This document shows, piece by piece, positions 5,980 to 12,258 of a DNA stretch of 42,132 nucleotides. Origin of the DNA: Candidatus Accumulibacter phosphatis (GTDB taxonomy: Bacteria > Pseudomonadota > Gammaproteobacteria > Burkholderiales > Rhodocyclaceae); the NCBI RefSeq assembly GCF_012939955.1, contig NZ_SPMY01000042.1:53-42184 (forward strand), read 5' to 3'. The notes under the pieces were generated by a model. That model had not been told where the DNA came from. It ran no database searches and saw only the letters and a program-made list of their open reading frames with translations. Numbering within the stretch: position 1 is the stretch's first letter; every line of letters starts with the position of its first letter. Made by a program: the position numbers and the translations under genes.

Positions 5980-6492
5980 TCAGAGGGGAGGAATGCGCAG
6001 CATCTGACCGGGATAGATCTTGTCCGGATGACCGAGCATCGGTTTGTTGGCCTCGAAAATGACCATGTATTTGTTCGGATCGTCGTAGTGCAGCTTTGCA
6101 ATTCTCGACAGGTTGTCGCCGGCGACGACGGTATAGAAGAGCGCTTCCGGCGCGCTCTGGTCAACAGACAGCATGTCGTTGACCCGGGTAACGCCATTCA
6201 CATTGCCACAGCAGAGCAGGATCTTCTCCTTGCTGCTCTGATCGCCGGCGACCCCGAAAACGCTTGCCGCACCTGCTGCGCCATCGAAAGTCACGGTCAG
6301 CCCGGTGACCGTCAAGCCCTGGCTGTTGATGTAAGCCTCGATCGCATCACCGGCGGCACGGTTCATAACGTCCAGCTTTTCTTTCGCCGCATTGTCATCC
6401 GGCGCATTGCTCACCGCGTCCAACGCAGCTTGCGCGTCTCCGGAGCGAAAAAGCTTCTCGCCTGCTTCCTTGACGAAATCGAATAGGCCCAT
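5980..6492 (-). CDS. kbp: BON-LysM protein, Kbp (YgaU)-like
   Basis: 170 residues starting MGLFDFVKEAGEKLF, which matches the start of the potassium-binding protein Kbp/YgaU family. A BON-like domain spans roughly residues 25-110 (INSQGLTVTGLTVTF, GVTRVNDMLSV), followed by a C-terminal LysM module (FYTVVAGDNLSRIAKLHY to YPGQMLRIPPL). In Enterobacteria the homologue is a cytoplasmic K+-binding stress protein. The start at 6492 is chosen because GGAGGAA lies just upstream; longer in-frame starts lack this. The gene is convergent with the depolymerase gene and separated from pstB1 by a hairpin. It contains two adjacent Cys in ILLCCGNVNG, at the spot where GN(V/I)xG is conserved. Confidence 0.9.
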   Translation of the reverse strand: MGLFDFVKEAGEKLFRSGDAQAALDAVSNAPDDNAAKEKLDVMNRAAGDAIEAYINSQGLTVTGLTVTFDGAAGAASVFGVAGDQSSKEKILLCCGNVNGVTRVNDMLSVDQSAPEALFYTVVAGDNLSRIAKLHYDDPNKYMVIFEANKPMLGHPDKIYPGQMLRIPPL

Positions 6493-6635
6493 GCGGTTTC
6501 CTCCGGTAGGTTGGCGCCGTCTGGCGCCGGAAAGTGACTTGACGGCTGTTTGACGATGGTCTGTAAACCGCCTCGAGTCTAGCAGTTTCCCCGGACTTGG
6601 CAAGCAGGGGCTTGCCAGCGGTGAGCCCCAACGGC

Positions 6636-6661
6636 ACAACGCCCGGCAGAGCGGGCGTTGT
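6636..6661 (-). terminator. Hairpin downstream of pstB1, possible end of the pst operon
   Basis: Perfect 10-bp inverted repeat ACAACGCCCG / CGGGCGTTGT with a six-base loop, 26 bases past the pstB1 stop. No T-tract follows on the minus strand, so it may be a 3'-end stabiliser or a weak or Rho-assisted terminator rather than a classical intrinsic one. Confidence 0.45.
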
Positions 6662-6686: not shown

Positions 6687-7493
6687 TCAGCCGTAACGGC
6701 CTTCGATGTAGTCGGAAGTCTCCTTGTGGATCGGGGTCACGAACATCTCCTCGGTCAGCGTGTGCTCGACGACCTTGCCCATCAGCATGAAGATGCATTC
6801 CTCGCTGGCGCGGCGCGCCTGCGCCATGTTGTGGGTGACGATGAGAATCGTGTATTGGCCACGCAGCTCCCAGAGCAGTTCCTCGACCGCTTCGGTACCC
6901 TTGGGGTCGAGCGCCGAGCACGGCTCGTCCATCAGCAGCAACTTCGGCTTCACCGGCAACAAACGCGCGATGCAGAGCTTTTGCTGCTCTTCGAGCGACA
7001 ACTCGGTAGCCTTGCGCTTGAGCCGATCCTTGACCTTGTCCCACAACAGCACGGTGCGCAGCGACTCCTCGACGATTTCGTCGGGAGTGCCCTGGTGTAC
7101 GTCACCACCACCCTTGGCGTGCAGACGGTGACTGAAGAGGATATTGTCGCGAATCGAAACGGGTAGCGGATTGGGGCGCTGAAAGACCATCCCCACCTGT
7201 TTGCGCACCTGTATCAACTCGACGCCGGGGTCGTAGATGTTCTGGCCCATGACATCGATGCTACCTTCGATGCGCACGTAGCCGAGGCGCTCATTGATGC
7301 GGTTGACGCTGCGCAGATAGGTGCTCTTGCCGCATCCCGAAGGCCCGATCATCGAGGTGATCATGCCCTGGCGGATGCGCAGGTCGACATCGTACAGGGC
7401 CTGGAAAGTCCCGTACCAGAGGTTCAGTTTTTTGGTATCAATGGCGTATTCTGGAGCTGGCTGCTGCAAAGCAGCGGCTTGAACGGCGGTCAT
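6687..7493 (-). CDS. pstB: Phosphate ABC transporter ATPase PstB, variant 1 (degenerate ABC signature)
   Basis: 268 residues, clear PstB similarity over the full length. Walker A is GPSGCGKST (50-58), the Q-loop Gln is Gln105 in VFQRPNPLP, Walker B is LLLMDE (Asp189, Glu190), the D-loop is SALD, and the switch His is His221 in VTHN. The ABC signature, normally LSGGQQQR, reads LSLEEQQKL (165-173): both glycines are lost. It is the last gene of the operon, 64 bp after a second PstB-like gene. Family knowledge: PstB normally works as a homodimer under PstA/PstC. Inference: this copy supplies the nucleotide-binding and hydrolysis half of a heterodimer and needs the intact signature of its neighbour. 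Confidence 0.93.
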   Translation of the reverse strand: MTAVQAAALQQPAPEYAIDTKKLNLWYGTFQALYDVDLRIRQGMITSMIGPSGCGKSTYLRSVNRINERLGYVRIEGSIDVMGQNIYDPGVELIQVRKQVGMVFQRPNPLPVSIRDNILFSHRLHAKGGGDVHQGTPDEIVEESLRTVLLWDKVKDRLKRKATELSLEEQQKLCIARLLPVKPKLLLMDEPCSALDPKGTEAVEELLWELRGQYTILIVTHNMAQARRASEECIFMLMGKVVEHTLTEEMFVTPIHKETSDYIEGRYG

Positions 7494-7557
7494 CTCGTTG
7501 TGTCCTTCGTTGGCATTCAGTCAATACAGTGGCAAGCAGCGTGGCGCGGTATTGGGC

Positions 7558-8391
7558 TCAGCCGAAGCGTCCCTCTACGTAATCACGCGTCCGCTGGTCC
7601 TTCACCTCGCCGGTGAACAAATCCTCGGTGACCCCGATCTCGACGCACTCGCTGTTCAGGAAGAACGCGGTGCGGTCGGCCAAACGCCGCGCCTGCTGCA
7701 CCAGGTTGGTAACCAGGATGATGGTCACTTCCTTGCGCAGCTCCTTGAGCACATCTTCGATGCGCATCGTGGTGACCGGGTCGACGGCGATCGAGAACTC
7801 GTCGAGCATCAACAGGTCTGGCTCCTGCGACAAGGCCCTGGCAATCGTCAGCCGCTGCTGTTGGCCGCCGGAGAGCAGGCTGCCAAGCGCACTCAGACGA
7901 TCCTTGACTTCGTCCCAGAGGGCCGCACGGGTCAGGCAGCGTTGCACGATTACGTCCAGCTCGGCTCTTTCCTTGATCCCGCGCAGGCGCGGCGACAGGG
8001 CAACGTTGTCATAGACGGTCATCGGCAGACCGACCGGCAAGGGAAAGACGACGCCAATCCGGCTACGTAGCGCATAGACGTTCTTCAGGTGGCGGGTATC
8101 CAGACCGTTGAACTGGATCTCGCCGGCCACGCGCATCCCTGTAGTGAACATGTCCATGCGGTTGACCGCCTTGAGGAAGGAGGTCTTGCCGGCGTTGGCG
8201 GGGCCAATGATGCCGAAAATTTCGTGCTCGCGTATCTCCAGGTTGACGTCCTTCAGGGCCACCGCCTTGCCGTAACTGATAGTCAGATCCTTGACCGCCA
8301 ACTTGATCCGCGGCTCACCGGAAGCGGCGTTGGTTTGGCCAGCAGCCACCGGGGCCCGTTCGAGAGCGCTTTGCGCGCCTTGACTTACCAT
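7558..8391 (-). CDS. Second PstB-like ATPase, variant 2 (Q-loop and switch His lost)
   Basis: 277 residues, PstB-like from about residue 30. Walker A is GPANAGKT (63-70) and the signature LSGGQQQRL (173-181) is intact. Walker B LLMLDE keeps Asp197 and Glu198. The Q-loop reads VFPLPVGLP, with Pro117 where the conserved Gln should be. The switch His is Asn229 (VTNLVQQAR). The D-loop is altered (SIAVD) and the Pro after Walker B is Phe. The ATG overlaps the pstA stop by seven bases, implying coupled translation. A longer in-frame extension upstream is a shadow of pstA. The defects complement those of the downstream PstB, suggesting an obligate heterodimer. Confidence 0.9.
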   Translation of the reverse strand: MVSQGAQSALERAPVAAGQTNAASGEPRIKLAVKDLTISYGKAVALKDVNLEIREHEIFGIIGPANAGKTSFLKAVNRMDMFTTGMRVAGEIQFNGLDTRHLKNVYALRSRIGVVFPLPVGLPMTVYDNVALSPRLRGIKERAELDVIVQRCLTRAALWDEVKDRLSALGSLLSGGQQQRLTIARALSQEPDLLMLDEFSIAVDPVTTMRIEDVLKELRKEVTIILVTNLVQQARRLADRTAFFLNSECVEIGVTEDLFTGEVKDQRTRDYVEGRFG

Positions 8392-9275
8392 TTCTTCTTC
8401 CCCCTGAGCCACATGCGAAACGCGATCGACGCGCTGTTCATCAACAACACCAGTCCGATGAGTACCAGAGCGATACCGAACGGAACCTCTTCGGCGATCC
8501 CCGGAACCTGGGTCGCGGCAACAAACAGGTGCAACGACAAGGCCATGGTCTGGTCGAAAACGCTTTGCGGCAGGAATGGCGTGAAGAACACCGCCCCGGT
8601 AAACATGATCGGCGCGGTCTCGCCAGCGGTACGCGAAACCTCGAGGATCACGCCGGTCAGAATGCCGGTGATCGAGTTCGGCAGCACCACCTTGCGAATG
8701 GTCTGCCAGCGCGTCGCACCCATGTTCCAGCAAGCCTCGCGAAACGCCGGCGGTACCGACTGCAGCGATTCTCGGGTAGCAACGATGACCACCGGCATGG
8801 TCATCACCGCCAGGGTCAGACTGGCCGCCAGGATACTCGTCCCGAACTTGAAAAAGATGACGAAGGCGCCGAGCCCGAACAGGGCATGCACGATCGACGG
8901 CACGCCGGCCAGGTTGATGATCGCCAGATTGATCACCCGCGTGAACCAGTTGTCGCCGGCGTACTCGCTGAGGTAGATCGCCGCGAAGATGCCGATCGGG
9001 ACCGACAGCAGAAGCGCCACCGTCACCAGCCAGACGGTGCCCAGCAGCGCCGGCAGGACGCCGCCGGTACGCATGCCGTCGGTTGGCGCGGTGAACAGAA
9101 ACTCCCAGGAGATCGCCCCGCCACCCTTGTGAATCAGGGTTCCGAGAATGATCAGTACCGGCGCAATCAACATCAGGGTCATCAAGCCGAAGAGCATTCT
9201 ATAGAGGCTCTGAACCCTGGCATTGCGGTGGTTCAGGCTGCTCGCCTGGAACATGGCTGCATTGGCAGTTGTCAT
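8385..9275 (-). CDS. pstA: Phosphate ABC transporter permease PstA
   Basis: 296 residues, inner-membrane permease with about six transmembrane segments; the first is around MLFGLMTLMLIAPVLIILG. The cytoplasmic coupling loop FREACWNMGATRWQTIRKVV is the binding-protein-dependent transport (EAA-type) motif that contacts the ATPase. SVPIGIFAAIYLSEYAGDN is typical of PstA. It starts three bases after the pstC stop and overlaps the next ATPase gene by seven bases. It forms the translocation pore with PstC. Confidence 0.96.
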   Translation of the reverse strand: MTTANAAMFQASSLNHRNARVQSLYRMLFGLMTLMLIAPVLIILGTLIHKGGGAISWEFLFTAPTDGMRTGGVLPALLGTVWLVTVALLLSVPIGIFAAIYLSEYAGDNWFTRVINLAIINLAGVPSIVHALFGLGAFVIFFKFGTSILAASLTLAVMTMPVVIVATRESLQSVPPAFREACWNMGATRWQTIRKVVLPNSITGILTGVILEVSRTAGETAPIMFTGAVFFTPFLPQSVFDQTMALSLHLFVAATQVPGIAEEVPFGIALVLIGLVLLMNSASIAFRMWLRGKKKW

Positions 9276-9278
9276 TTT

Positions 9279-10226
9279 CTATCCCTTGCGAATGCCGCGC
9301 ACGATCAGATCGGCGGTCAGGTTGACGGTGAAGGTAACCAGGAAAAGCAGAATGCCGATGGTGAACAGCGCCTGATAATGCTCGCCGCCGACCACCGTTT
9401 CACCCAACTCAGCGGCGATGGTGGCGGTCAGCGCGCGCACCGAGTCGAAGACGCTGTCGGGAATATTGACCGCGTGTCCGGTAGCCATCAGCACGGCCAT
9501 CGTTTCTCCGAAGCCCCGTCCGACCCCGAGCAGCACGCCACCGAGCAGGCCGTTCTTGGCCGCCGGCAGCACCACCTTGTAGGTCACCTGCCAGCGCGTC
9601 GCGCCCATCGCCTCGGCGGCTTCACGGTAGCGATCGGGAACCGCCTTGAGCGCATCTTCGGCGATCGAGGTCATGATCGGCGCAGCCATCAAACCAAGGA
9701 TGATGCCGGCGTTGAGCACGCAGAGACCCACCGGCACGTCGAACCACTTGATGATCAAGGGGTTCATGATCACCAGGCCGATGAAGCCCCAGACCACCGA
9801 CGGAATGGCCGCCAGCAACTCGACCAGCACTTTCAAGGTTTCACGGGTCTTGCCACTGGCAAACTCGGCAATGTAGATGGCCGCGCCGAGCGAAAACGGC
9901 ACGGCGACCAGCATCGCCAGACCGGTGACGCTGGCGGTACCGGCCATCAGCGCCAGGATCCCGTACTCGGGGGCGTCGGCGTCGCTCGGGAACCAGTACG
10001 GCGTGAGAAAGAACTCCCGGACGTTCATGTGGTGGAGGATGAAGCCGATGCCTTCCTTGAAGACGAAGATGAAGATTCCCAGGACGAAGACGATCGCCGA
10101 GATACCGCAGAGGAAGACGATGGCCTGGACGGCCTTGTCTACATACCAGTCGAGATCGCGACGATCGAACGTGCCAGCCCCGCCGGCGGCCATTGCGGCG
10201 CCGGGTACAGTGTTGCTGTTGGCCAT
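9279..10226 (-). CDS. pstC: Phosphate ABC transporter permease PstC
   Basis: 315 residues with six or more predicted membrane helices; the first lies near AIVFLCGISAIVFVLGIFIF. The EAA-type loop is YREAAEAMGATRWQVTYKVV. VPFSLGAAIYIAEFA and IPSVVWGFIGLVIM are characteristic of PstC. It is separated from the upstream phoU stop by one base and from pstA by three, so it belongs to one operon. The cytoplasmic N-terminus of about 35 residues (MANSNTVPGAAMAAGGAG) is low in complexity. Confidence 0.96.
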   Translation of the reverse strand: MANSNTVPGAAMAAGGAGTFDRRDLDWYVDKAVQAIVFLCGISAIVFVLGIFIFVFKEGIGFILHHMNVREFFLTPYWFPSDADAPEYGILALMAGTASVTGLAMLVAVPFSLGAAIYIAEFASGKTRETLKVLVELLAAIPSVVWGFIGLVIMNPLIIKWFDVPVGLCVLNAGIILGLMAAPIMTSIAEDALKAVPDRYREAAEAMGATRWQVTYKVVLPAAKNGLLGGVLLGVGRGFGETMAVLMATGHAVNIPDSVFDSVRALTATIAAELGETVVGGEHYQALFTIGILLFLVTFTVNLTADLIVRGIRKG

Positions 10227-10227
10227 C

Positions 10228-11313
10228 TCAGTCGGCCTCCTCGCCCCGCAGGGTGGTCATCAAATTGCTCACCTGCACGGCGATCTCGCGACTCAGCGCT
10301 GCGTAGCGCTCGCGTCGCTGATCCTCGGGAAGTTCCGCCGCAACCACGCCGCCGACATCCCACTCCAGCGCCGCGGTGTGGAAGGGCACGTTGTCCACGT
10401 ATGACTTGACTGGCCCCTGCAGGCTGACGATGACGTGGAAATCGGCGAGATCCTGAAGGCTCAGATTCATCGCCTTTGGTCGGTGGCGAGCCAGGTCGAC
10501 CCCCGACTCCTGGAGCAAGCCGACCACCTCCGGCAGCATCGCGCCAGCCTGACGGCCCAGGCTGCGGAACTCACCACCTCCGGAAGCAATCTTGCCAGCA
10601 ACGGTCTCGGCGATCGGTCCGAGCAGGGTGTTGTCCTCGTCAAGGAAGAGGATCCGGAAAGCCTTGGCCGCCTTGGTCTGGCCGGTAACCGCAAACACCG
10701 TTTCCTCGCAGATGTTCTTCGCCTGATCCGACACCCGTTCGAGCGAATTGAAAACGCCGAGGTAGGCAAAGAGATCCTCGATGCTGAAGTTCCCCCCCTC
10801 ATTGACCAGGTCGGCAAAAACCACATCAAAAGTGCGCTCGACCTGATCGGCCATGATCATCGTCGCCCTGGCCTTCTCGGCATTGCCGTCGATGAAGCCG
10901 CACATCGCCTGCTTGAACATCTGCCGCGACTCGCCGGCGAGCAATTCGACCTCGCGCTTGATCAACGCGTCGGGGCGCTTGGCGAGATGCACCGATTCGC
11001 GGGCGATGGTCACCGCGTAGTCGCCGACGCGCTCCAGCGCGACGTTGGCGTGAATCATCGCCGTCATCAGGCGCAAATGCCCGGCGCTCGGCAGGTGCAC
11101 GCCGATGAACGCGTGGCACATCTTGTCCAGCTTGCGATTTTCCGCGTTGATCCGCTGATCTCCCAGGACTGTCGCATAGGCGAGCTTGTCATCACCGCTC
11201 AGCAGGGCACGTACCGCAGCAGCGAGGGCAGCGTCGACGCGCTTGGCCAGCAGGGTCGCTTGTTGTTTGATCAGGGACAGGTCTCTCTCGAGACGTTCTT
11301 CGTAATGGCTCAT
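10228..11313 (-). CDS. phoU: PhoU fused to an inactive LMW-phosphatase/ArsC-like domain
   Basis: 361 residues, against about 235 for ordinary PhoU. Residues 1-215 hold the two PhoU three-helix repeats with both metal-binding E-x3-D motifs (ERVGD at 94-98, ERVSD at 192-196). Residues 218-355 resemble low-molecular-weight protein tyrosine phosphatase / arsenate reductase: ILF at 221-223, N228, P233 and AE at 235-236 align with the P-loop region, and HRPK plus LADFHVIVSL match the middle strand. The catalytic Cys position is Asp225 and the P-loop Arg position is Leu231, so phosphatase chemistry is not expected. It lies between pstS and pstC. PhoU normally restrains PhoR/Pst signalling. The extra domain may bind a phosphate-like ligand or a partner (inference). 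Confidence 0.88.
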   Translation of the reverse strand: MSHYEERLERDLSLIKQQATLLAKRVDAALAAAVRALLSGDDKLAYATVLGDQRINAENRKLDKMCHAFIGVHLPSAGHLRLMTAMIHANVALERVGDYAVTIARESVHLAKRPDALIKREVELLAGESRQMFKQAMCGFIDGNAEKARATMIMADQVERTFDVVFADLVNEGGNFSIEDLFAYLGVFNSLERVSDQAKNICEETVFAVTGQTKAAKAFRILFLDEDNTLLGPIAETVAGKIASGGGEFRSLGRQAGAMLPEVVGLLQESGVDLARHRPKAMNLSLQDLADFHVIVSLQGPVKSYVDNVPFHTAALEWDVGGVVAAELPEDQRRERYAALSREIAVQVSNLMTTLRGEEAD

Positions 11314-11403: not shown

Positions 11404-12258
11404 TTACTTGCAGCTGACTTTCTTGATTGGCGCGTAGCCTTCCTTGGCAACGATGCATTGGCCAACGTCGCTCTTGATCCAGTCCATGTATTTCTTGGTG
11501 TCGGCTTTCGGCTGACCATCGGTGTACATGAACAGCGGACGGGCGATCGGATAGGTGCCGTCGAAAGCGGTATCCTCGGTCGGCATGACGCAGGGCTTGC
11601 CTTTCTCGGGCGCGATGCACAATGCCTTCAGGTGATCGGTAGCGTAGGCGAGGCCGCTGTAACCAATCGCGCAAGGCGTCTTCTCAACCAGGTCGGCGAC
11701 ATCCTTGGAGCCGTGCATGTCCAGCGTCCCCTGGCGGAACTTGCCCTTCTCACCGAGAACGGCCTCCTGGAAGTAGGCGTAGGTGCCCGAGTTGTTCTGC
11801 CGGCTGACGACGACGATCTCGTCCTTGCAGCCTGGAATGGTGATCCCCAGATCGCTCCACTTGGTCGCCCCACCGTCACGTCCGTAGATCTTGGCCAGTT
11901 CCGGGACGCTCAAGGTATTGAGCGGAAAGTTCTTGTGTACGAAGATAGCCAGGGCATCGTAGCCGACCACGTGCTCGACCGGATCGTGACCTTTGGCCTT
12001 GGCCTCGGCAATTTCCTTGTCTTTCATCTTGCGGCTGGAGTTGGCGATGTCCACGGTGCCGTTGATCATGGCTGCGATGCCGGTACCCGACCCGCCGCCG
12101 GAAACCGCGACGGCCACATCCGGATTGATCTTGCCGTATTGCTCGGCCCACGACTGGGCCACGTTGACCAGGGTGTCCGAGCCCTTGTTCTGGATCTCGG
12201 TTCGTGCAGAAACGGCACCTGACGCCAGGGCAGCGGCGACGGCAAGACTGACGCTCAA
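11404..12258 (-). CDS. pstS: Phosphate-binding protein PstS, signal-peptide frameshift
   Basis: Periplasmic phosphate-binding protein. The mature part starts near RTEIQNKGSDTLVNVAQSW and carries the phosphate-site segments SGGGSGTGIAAM, IANSSRKM and SRQNNSGTYAYF. As written, the frame opens at a TTG at 12258 with no Shine-Dalgarno and a signal peptide lacking its charged N-region. An ATG at 12280 with GGAGAG upstream reads MTSKSMF and then leaves frame at a run of six T (minus strand, 12257-12262). Removing one T joins MTSKSMFL to SVSLAVAAALASGAVSA, a complete signal peptide ending VSA. The likely true gene therefore runs 11404-12280, with either a sequencing error or a real slippage mutation. 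First gene of the pst operon. Confidence 0.9.
   Translation of the reverse strand: MSVSLAVAAALASGAVSARTEIQNKGSDTLVNVAQSWAEQYGKINPDVAVAVSGGGSGTGIAAMINGTVDIANSSRKMKDKEIAEAKAKGHDPVEHVVGYDALAIFVHKNFPLNTLSVPELAKIYGRDGGATKWSDLGITIPGCKDEIVVVSRQNNSGTYAYFQEAVLGEKGKFRQGTLDMHGSKDVADLVEKTPCAIGYSGLAYATDHLKALCIAPEKGKPCVMPTEDTAFDGTYPIARPLFMYTDGQPKADTKKYMDWIKSDVGQCIVAKEGYAPIKKVSCK

Follow-up and report, generated by a model that had tools for sequence, protein, structure and literature searches.

The window analysed here, a stretch of 42,132 nucleotides from a Candidatus Accumulibacter phosphatis contig (NZ_SPMY01000042.1), harbors a pst operon on the minus strand. According to the list of open reading frames, its closely spaced genes run from position 12258 down to 6687 in the order pstS, long phoU, pstC, pstA, pstB2 and pstB1 (Table 1). 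Two different PstB-type ATPases are thus encoded side by side. Their TIGR00972 scores (NCBIfam) were 313.7 bits for PstB1 and 275.7 bits for PstB2, both below the equivalog cut-off of 343.2, and this cut-off was reached by none of the pair proteins listed from the carriers that were tested. Directly downstream of pstB1 lies a gene for a LysM protein (5980-6639, minus strand), which also gave a weak BON match below the cut-off. A Pho-box search with up to three mismatches gave matches at chance level in the window and none upstream of pstS. Promoter and terminator scans of the window were likewise at chance level, and Rfam gave no match within it.

Table 1. Genes and motif codons of the pst operon, in window coordinates.
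Feature	Position	Strand	Description and evidence
pstB1	6687..7493	-	PstB-type ATPase, 268 aa; canonical Walker A, Q-loop, Walker B and H-loop, variant signature; TIGR00972 is top NCBIfam match
pstB1 signature codons, LSLEEQQ, residues 165-171	6981..7001	-	Motif reading
pstB2	7558..8391	-	PstB-type ATPase, 277 aa; intact LSGGQ signature, substitutions at the Q-loop and H-loop residues; TIGR00972 is top NCBIfam match
Asn229 codon, replaces switch His in PstB2	7705..7707	-	Motif reading
Intact LSGGQ of PstB2, residues 173-177	7861..7875	-	Motif reading
Pro117 codon, replaces Q-loop Gln in PstB2, within FPLPVGLP	8041..8043	-	Motif reading
pstA permease	8385..9275	-	TIGR00974, 257.6 bits, above cut-off; 7-base overlap with pstB2 start
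pstC permease	9279..10226	-	TIGR02138, 274.7 bits, above cut-off
phoU with C-terminal LMW-phosphatase/ArsC-like domain, Asp225 at nucleophile position	10228..11313	-	PhoU Pfam match; TIGR02135, 122.3 bits against a cut-off of 130.25
pstS phosphate-binding protein	11404..12258	-	TIGR02136, 241.5 bits, above cut-off

Both translations were read again for the motifs of ABC ATPases. The positions of the open reading frames and every residue number given in a preliminary description of this DNA were correct, and the pattern of intact and altered motifs reported there was confirmed. In PstB1, Walker A (residues 50-58), the Q-loop Gln105, Glu190, the D-loop SALD and the switch His221 are all standard, and the signature reads LSLEEQQ. 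PstB2 retains the A-loop Tyr40, the Walker A stretch GPANAGKT with Lys69, the LSGGQ signature and Asp197-Glu198 (Walker B and catalytic Glu). It departs from the standard with Pro117 at the place of the Q-loop Gln, Asn229 at that of the switch His, and the D-loop IAVD instead of SALD, although the D-loop Asp204 is still present in the altered loop. The full set of Walker A, Q-loop, LSGGQ, Walker B and H-loop is found in neither chain, each being without at least one element.

ABC ATPases dimerize head to tail, and each ATP site is built from Walker A, Q-loop, Walker B and H-loop of one subunit and the signature of its partner. When the two sequences are read in this established geometry, the deviations of both partners map to one composite site. 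The preliminary description had called the other site complete and this one doubly degenerate, and both terms hold in part. The first is right for Walker A, Q-loop, Walker B and H-loop of PstB1 and for LSGGQ of PstB2, but the facing D-loop is the altered IAVD of PstB2, and "complete" therefore covers only the motifs just named. The second is right in that the Q-loop Gln, the switch His and the opposite signature are replaced, but PstB2 has kept Lys69 and Glu198. The AlphaFold model of PstB2 was weak (pLDDT 69.3), with values below 50 in stretches at the Q-loop, the signature and the D-loop.

The conservation of the odd residues was followed in 105 entries each of PstB1 and PstB2, drawn from the genus, the class and the named loci, which correspond to 80 and 82 distinct sequences after removal of duplicates, as many genus loci duplicate named loci. 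To obtain canonical controls from the loci, proteins with at least 65% identity to the window proteins were assigned to the pair and those with 40-65% to canonical PstBs, and those below 40% were dropped. All 101 PstB1 entries readable at the signature are of the LSLE type (LSLEEQQ in 98, LSLEQQQ in two and LSLEKQQ in one); four were unreadable there, two at an assembly gap with their other halves readable (L034, L074) and two at contig ends (L037, L076). In PstB2, the Pro, LSGGQ, the Asp-Glu pair and the Asn are present in 103/103 readable entries and in two more read by hand (L116, L122), which makes 105/105, and Glu198, Lys69 and Tyr40 are retained in 103/103 readable entries. The named loci had been chosen by the PstB2 stretches EHEIFG and IIGPANAG, the latter in Walker A. 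These stretches are therefore no evidence of fixation, whereas Pro117, Asn229 and LSGGQ lie outside them. Additional loci from outside the class have the same motifs, with one LSLEA and minor changes in Walker A. The stretch FPLPVGLP around Pro117 was invariant in 20/20 diverse PstB2 sequences and, to judge from this invariance, is a newly conserved motif and not a broken one. In canonical control PstBs from several phyla, LSGGQ and VTH were found in 24/24 and GMVFQ in 23/24, with one off-pattern. Within the genus, the median dN/dS was 0.060 for PstB1 (136 pairs) and 0.066 for PstB2 (171 pairs), which indicates that both proteins are under purifying selection. Decay into pseudogenes was rejected, because the odd residues are invariant in each clade and dN/dS is near 0.06. 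The idea of a single-genome curiosity was likewise rejected, since 209 relatives were found in one pattern scan of named genomes, of which the best 80 were examined.

The two variants occur together. Among 28 genomes of the genus (the window's own and 27 others), a full PstB2 was found in 19, a pair cut by a contig end in one (G003) and none in eight. pstB1 adjoins pstB2 in all 19, with a gap in G023 and a cut by the contig end in G026. Named records with identical PstB2 stretches assign this genus to Candidatus Accumulibacter. At family level, PstB2 matches (E ≤ 1e-75) occurred in 7/249 genomes, all belonging to this one genus of the 68 sampled. A named record titled Dechloromonas sp. SSD3 (L070) has the pair. 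At class level, PstB1 matches (E ≤ 1e-85) and PstB2 matches (E ≤ 1e-75) came from one and the same set of 8/369 genomes, which includes the window's own, and the two genes are adjacent in 8/8. In the phylum sample of 398 genomes, 23 contain PstB1, and all of these also contain PstB2. PstB2 occurs in one further genome (G810, 71% complete), where 354 bases separate it from the contig end toward which pstB1 would be expected. The expectation that the variants always co-occur as neighbors was thus borne out with respect to co-occurrence in both samples, and none of the class (369) or phylum (398) genomes showed an LSLEE-type PstB without PstB2. The genes are neighbors in 22 of the 23 phylum genomes. 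In the remaining one (G787), pstC-pstA-pstB2 share a contig, and pstB1 is found by itself on a different contig, surrounded by unrelated genes (loci L200 and L201). The assembly is 96% complete and 6% contaminated, and consists of 730 contigs. Unless this arrangement stems from faulty assembly or binning, it amounts to a natural experiment in which the genes are separable and neither has been lost. Two copies of the pair per genome were seen in G712, G728, G783 and G759, the second copy of G759 being cut by a contig end.

The best 80 of the 209 relatives comprise, by title, 15 from Accumulibacter, and most others are from Gammaproteobacteria (Thiodiazotropha and other symbionts, Chromatiales, Lysobacterales). 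The order pstS-phoU-pstC-pstA-pstB2-pstB1 is entire in 67 of these loci and truncated at a contig end in the remaining 13. pstB2 and pstB1 are neighbors in 78, and the two others (L112, L136) run out at the contig edge just past pstB2. A lone PstB1 could not appear in this set, as the named loci were picked via PstB2 patterns. Operons with the pair also occur in records labelled Planctomycetota (L105), Polarisedimenticolaceae (L129), Bacteriovoracaceae (L130) and Gemmatimonadetes (L135), labels that may reflect lateral transfer or mis-binning. In 72,556 plasmid records searched at E ≤ 1e-30, 137 PstB2 and 373 PstB1 matches were obtained, all below 60% identity, and neither variant was present.

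A quick tree search with midpoint rooting was run on 23 PstB1, 23 PstB2 and 25 canonical PstB sequences (L041 was left out). PstB1 and PstB2 each fall on one side of one branch (SH-aLRT 100). Their stems are long, with 2.25 (PstB1) and 2.75 (PstB2) changes per site, and the spread within each clade is small. This tree fits a single origin of each variant, followed by rapid change and then fixation. The midpoint-rooted tree, whose long stems call for a long-branch warning, is compatible with PstB1 and PstB2 as sisters and with a separate descent of the two. Among the best 80 of 209 relatives, kin with up to 83% identity are found in Gammaproteobacteria. As the pair is also absent from the 67 further genera sampled in the family, it may have been acquired by the Accumulibacter group through transfer.

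In a homodimer of PstB1 both signatures would be faulty, and in one of PstB2 both sites would lack the Gln and the His, so that only a heterodimer gives one good set of motifs. A heterodimer also best explains the joint fixation and joint inheritance of the two variants. On this comparative evidence, we consider it probable that PstB1 and PstB2 form the obligate heterodimeric motor of a binding-protein-dependent phosphate importer, in which one ATP site is of the consensus, hydrolytic kind and the other is degenerate. Such an importer may, as the preliminary description proposed, be slower or more tightly gated. The operon would then encode such an importer with a PstB1/PstB2 motor. At its active site, Walker A, Q-loop, Walker B and H-loop of PstB1 would face the LSGGQ of PstB2, and ATP hydrolysis there would power transport. 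The second site, formed by Walker A and B of PstB2 without Q-loop Gln or switch His and facing the LSLEE of PstB1, would bind ATP with little or no hydrolysis and might act as a hinge or have a regulatory role, by analogy with asymmetric ABC exporters. We infer the heterodimer, the single-site hydrolysis and the hinge role alike. Since Lys69, Glu198 and Tyr40 are kept, ATP binding at the second site is likely, and hydrolysis is expected to be poor.

In the asymmetric ABC exporters (TM287/288, BmrCD, TAP, the ABCC family and Pdr5), changes on the Walker side and in the partner signature meet at one site, as they do here. According to a review (PMC7756269), the degenerate signature of Pdr5 is LNVEQ and faces a degenerate Walker side, and the degenerate site of exporters is considered to retain ATP through many cycles and to serve as a hinge. 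The LSLEE of PstB1 is close in kind to this LNVEQ (PMC7756269, excerpts). The asymmetric exporters are mostly without the catalytic Glu at the degenerate site, a loss called a hallmark of asymmetric ABC transporters in an excerpt of PMC7544095, whereas the pair described here belongs to an importer and keeps the Glu. The retained Glu198 makes the second site unlike the classic Glu-less degenerate kind.

This retention bears on a different reading of the heterodimer, in which ATP is hydrolyzed at both sites: Asn229 and Glu198 would suffice, LSLEE would be tolerated, and the asymmetry would be quantitative. The invariance of Glu198, Lys69 and Tyr40 in the readable PstB2 entries speaks for it, and ABCC1 with Asn at the H-loop is reported, in the excerpts of PMC7756269, to transport like the wild type. 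As Asn is tolerated in ABCC1, Asn229 alone is a weak argument for the preferred heterodimer with a single hydrolytic site, which is supported instead by the three changes in combination. Against hydrolysis at both sites, the Q-loop residue, the H-loop residue and the opposite signature of one site have changed together and almost invariantly, and the signature or the His is altered in 0/24 canonical PstBs. We therefore regard two-site hydrolysis as unlikely.

The carriers were also searched for other phosphate transport genes. The genome of the window (97% complete) has no protein at the TIGR00972 cut-off, the best match outside the pair reaching 219 bits. In a PstC-family search of this genome, the operon PstC scored above the cut-off and was accompanied by the operon PstA and one match of 42.5 bits. 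A third, canonical PstB serving the operon, which the preliminary description had named as a finding that would speak against the heterodimer, was thus not found in this genome, and a hidden third PstB in the genome as assembled was rejected by both family searches. Across 26 carriers from the genus and class, a canonical PstB at the TIGR00972 cut-off is encoded elsewhere in 18 and absent from eight, and in 22 carriers from the rest of the phylum sample it is present in one and absent from 21. In total, 29/48 carriers are without a canonical PstB above this cut-off; G003, with its truncated pair, and G810 are outside these 48. With the carriers confined to those with a completeness of 90% or more and a contamination of 5% or less, the count is 19/36 (7/24 in genus and class, 12/12 in the rest of the phylum). 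All eight genus and class carriers without canonical PstB encode the low-affinity Pit family, and the pair may therefore be neither the sole phosphate route nor essential. In the 18 of 26 carriers with a canonical PstB, a source of PstB besides the pair exists.

The PhoU of the operon is unusual as well. At E ≤ 0.5, LMWPc was matched by 17/22 PhoU family members (best 1.4e-8), the window's own protein not being among them. Profile comparison matched the C-terminal domain of this PhoU to ArsC chains (from E 1e-8), and fold comparison matched it to ArsC structures with a TM of about 0.8 over the target (PhoU model pLDDT 86.9). The position of the nucleophile Cys is occupied by Asp in 70/71 aligned sequences and by Glu in one. 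With Asp or Glu instead of this Cys, the ArsC/LMW-phosphatase-like domain is likely a pseudoenzyme. A fusion of PhoU with an arsenate reductase was not found among the literature matches listed, which comprise titles and abstract openings.

It is conceivable that the pair is a phosphate sensor or transceptor, in which slow ATP turnover signals to the Pho system via the unusual PhoU, and uptake itself is left to Pit or a canonical Pst. The PhoU with an ArsC-like domain lacking the catalytic Cys, the Pit in 8/8 tested carriers without canonical PstB and the separate canonical PstB in 18/26 carriers would agree with such a role. However, the operon encodes PstS, PstC and PstA, each scoring above its family cut-off, and the majority of the 48 carriers have no other PstB above the cut-off. 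We consider a sensor quite improbable.

The permeases provide a further hint regarding the organization of the heterodimeric importer. Residues 179-191 of PstA form an unusual EAA loop, REACWNMGATRWQ, which is nearly fixed in operons with the pair; one variant, RVACWNMGATRWQ, was seen in L200. The first comparison of EAA loops covered only those fitting the search pattern. The corresponding loop of PstC in these operons is REAAEAMGATRWQ, and this contrast hints that PstA may be the permease that contacts PstB2.

Among the closest known systems is PstSCAB of E. coli (PDB 9k3s, 9k3x, 9k3y), which has the same binding protein, two permeases and PstB family. The best solved sequence match of both PstB1 and PstB2 is the PstB of 9k3x, and the nearest solved fold of PstB2, from its weak model (pLDDT 69.3), is 9k3s, with 9k3x second. 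No paper on the cryo-EM of PstSCAB was found in the open-licence literature. E. coli has one PstB with intact Q-loop, LSGGQ and H-loop, whereas here two diverged PstBs below the family cut-off carry complementary changes. Unlike in E. coli PstSCAB, phoU sits between pstS and pstC.

Tandem pstB genes as such are known from Firmicutes, and their first functional comparison was, by its own account, published in 2025 (PMC12096839, excerpts). In Enterococcus faecalis and other Firmicutes, pstB1 and pstB2 likewise are adjacent in one pst operon and are not fully interchangeable; however, according to the same excerpts, both Enterococcus PstBs retain Walker A, Walker B, LSGGQ and H-loop, which the pair described here does not (PMC12096839). 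In the tandems of Latilactobacillus (L159) and Caballeronia (L158), whose full sequences were read, the motifs are likewise intact in both copies. An ordinary Firmicutes-like tandem was therefore rejected: the Enterococcus PstBs and these two tandems have intact motifs, and the pair in Accumulibacter is a different kind of pair. That PstB1 and PstB2 are alternative homodimeric ATPases for different conditions, as the functionally non-overlapping Enterococcus tandem might suggest, is very improbable, because both sites of either homodimer would be defective, whereas the Enterococcus pair keeps all four motifs considered (PMC12096839, excerpts), and neither variant occurs alone in the genome samples except for one PstB2 beside a contig end.

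IrtAB is an importer with an exporter fold. DppABCDF is, like the operon product proposed here, a binding-protein-dependent type I importer with two different nucleotide-binding domains. In its trapped structure, DppD and DppF both carried mutations of the Glu (E179Q and E187Q), and in a supplementary figure both are aligned with consensus- and degenerate-site ATPases (PMC12136057, excerpts). A PstB pair with complementary defects was not mentioned in the excerpts of PMC7756269, PMC11131965 and PMC12136057, and no account of one was found in the open-licence literature, mostly titles and abstracts, on heterodimeric or degenerate importers, paired pstB and Accumulibacter pst.

It is tempting to speculate that the PstB1/PstB2 operons represent an unrecognised, widespread Pst subtype with one-site hydrolysis that replaces canonical PstB in many Pseudomonadota, and that the parked ATP and the PhoU with its dead ArsC domain jointly gate phosphate entry. 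We offer this wider proposal tentatively, as possible rather than probable. If this proposal is correct, the system would be the first importer of the binding-protein-dependent class known to work on the logic of CFTR, TAP or Pdr5. The question of whether two hydrolytic sites are required in ABC importers, and of what purpose a non-hydrolyzing site serves, is treated mainly for exporters in the literature covered here. With the pair, nature would provide an asymmetric importer that is strongly conserved, transports a known small substrate and has a solved homolog in E. coli PstSCAB: a clean system for measuring the ATP used per phosphate and for swapping sites. It spans many lineages, including polyphosphate-accumulating bacteria of wastewater plants, and phosphate uptake of the Accumulibacter type is then not simply deducible from the E. 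coli model.
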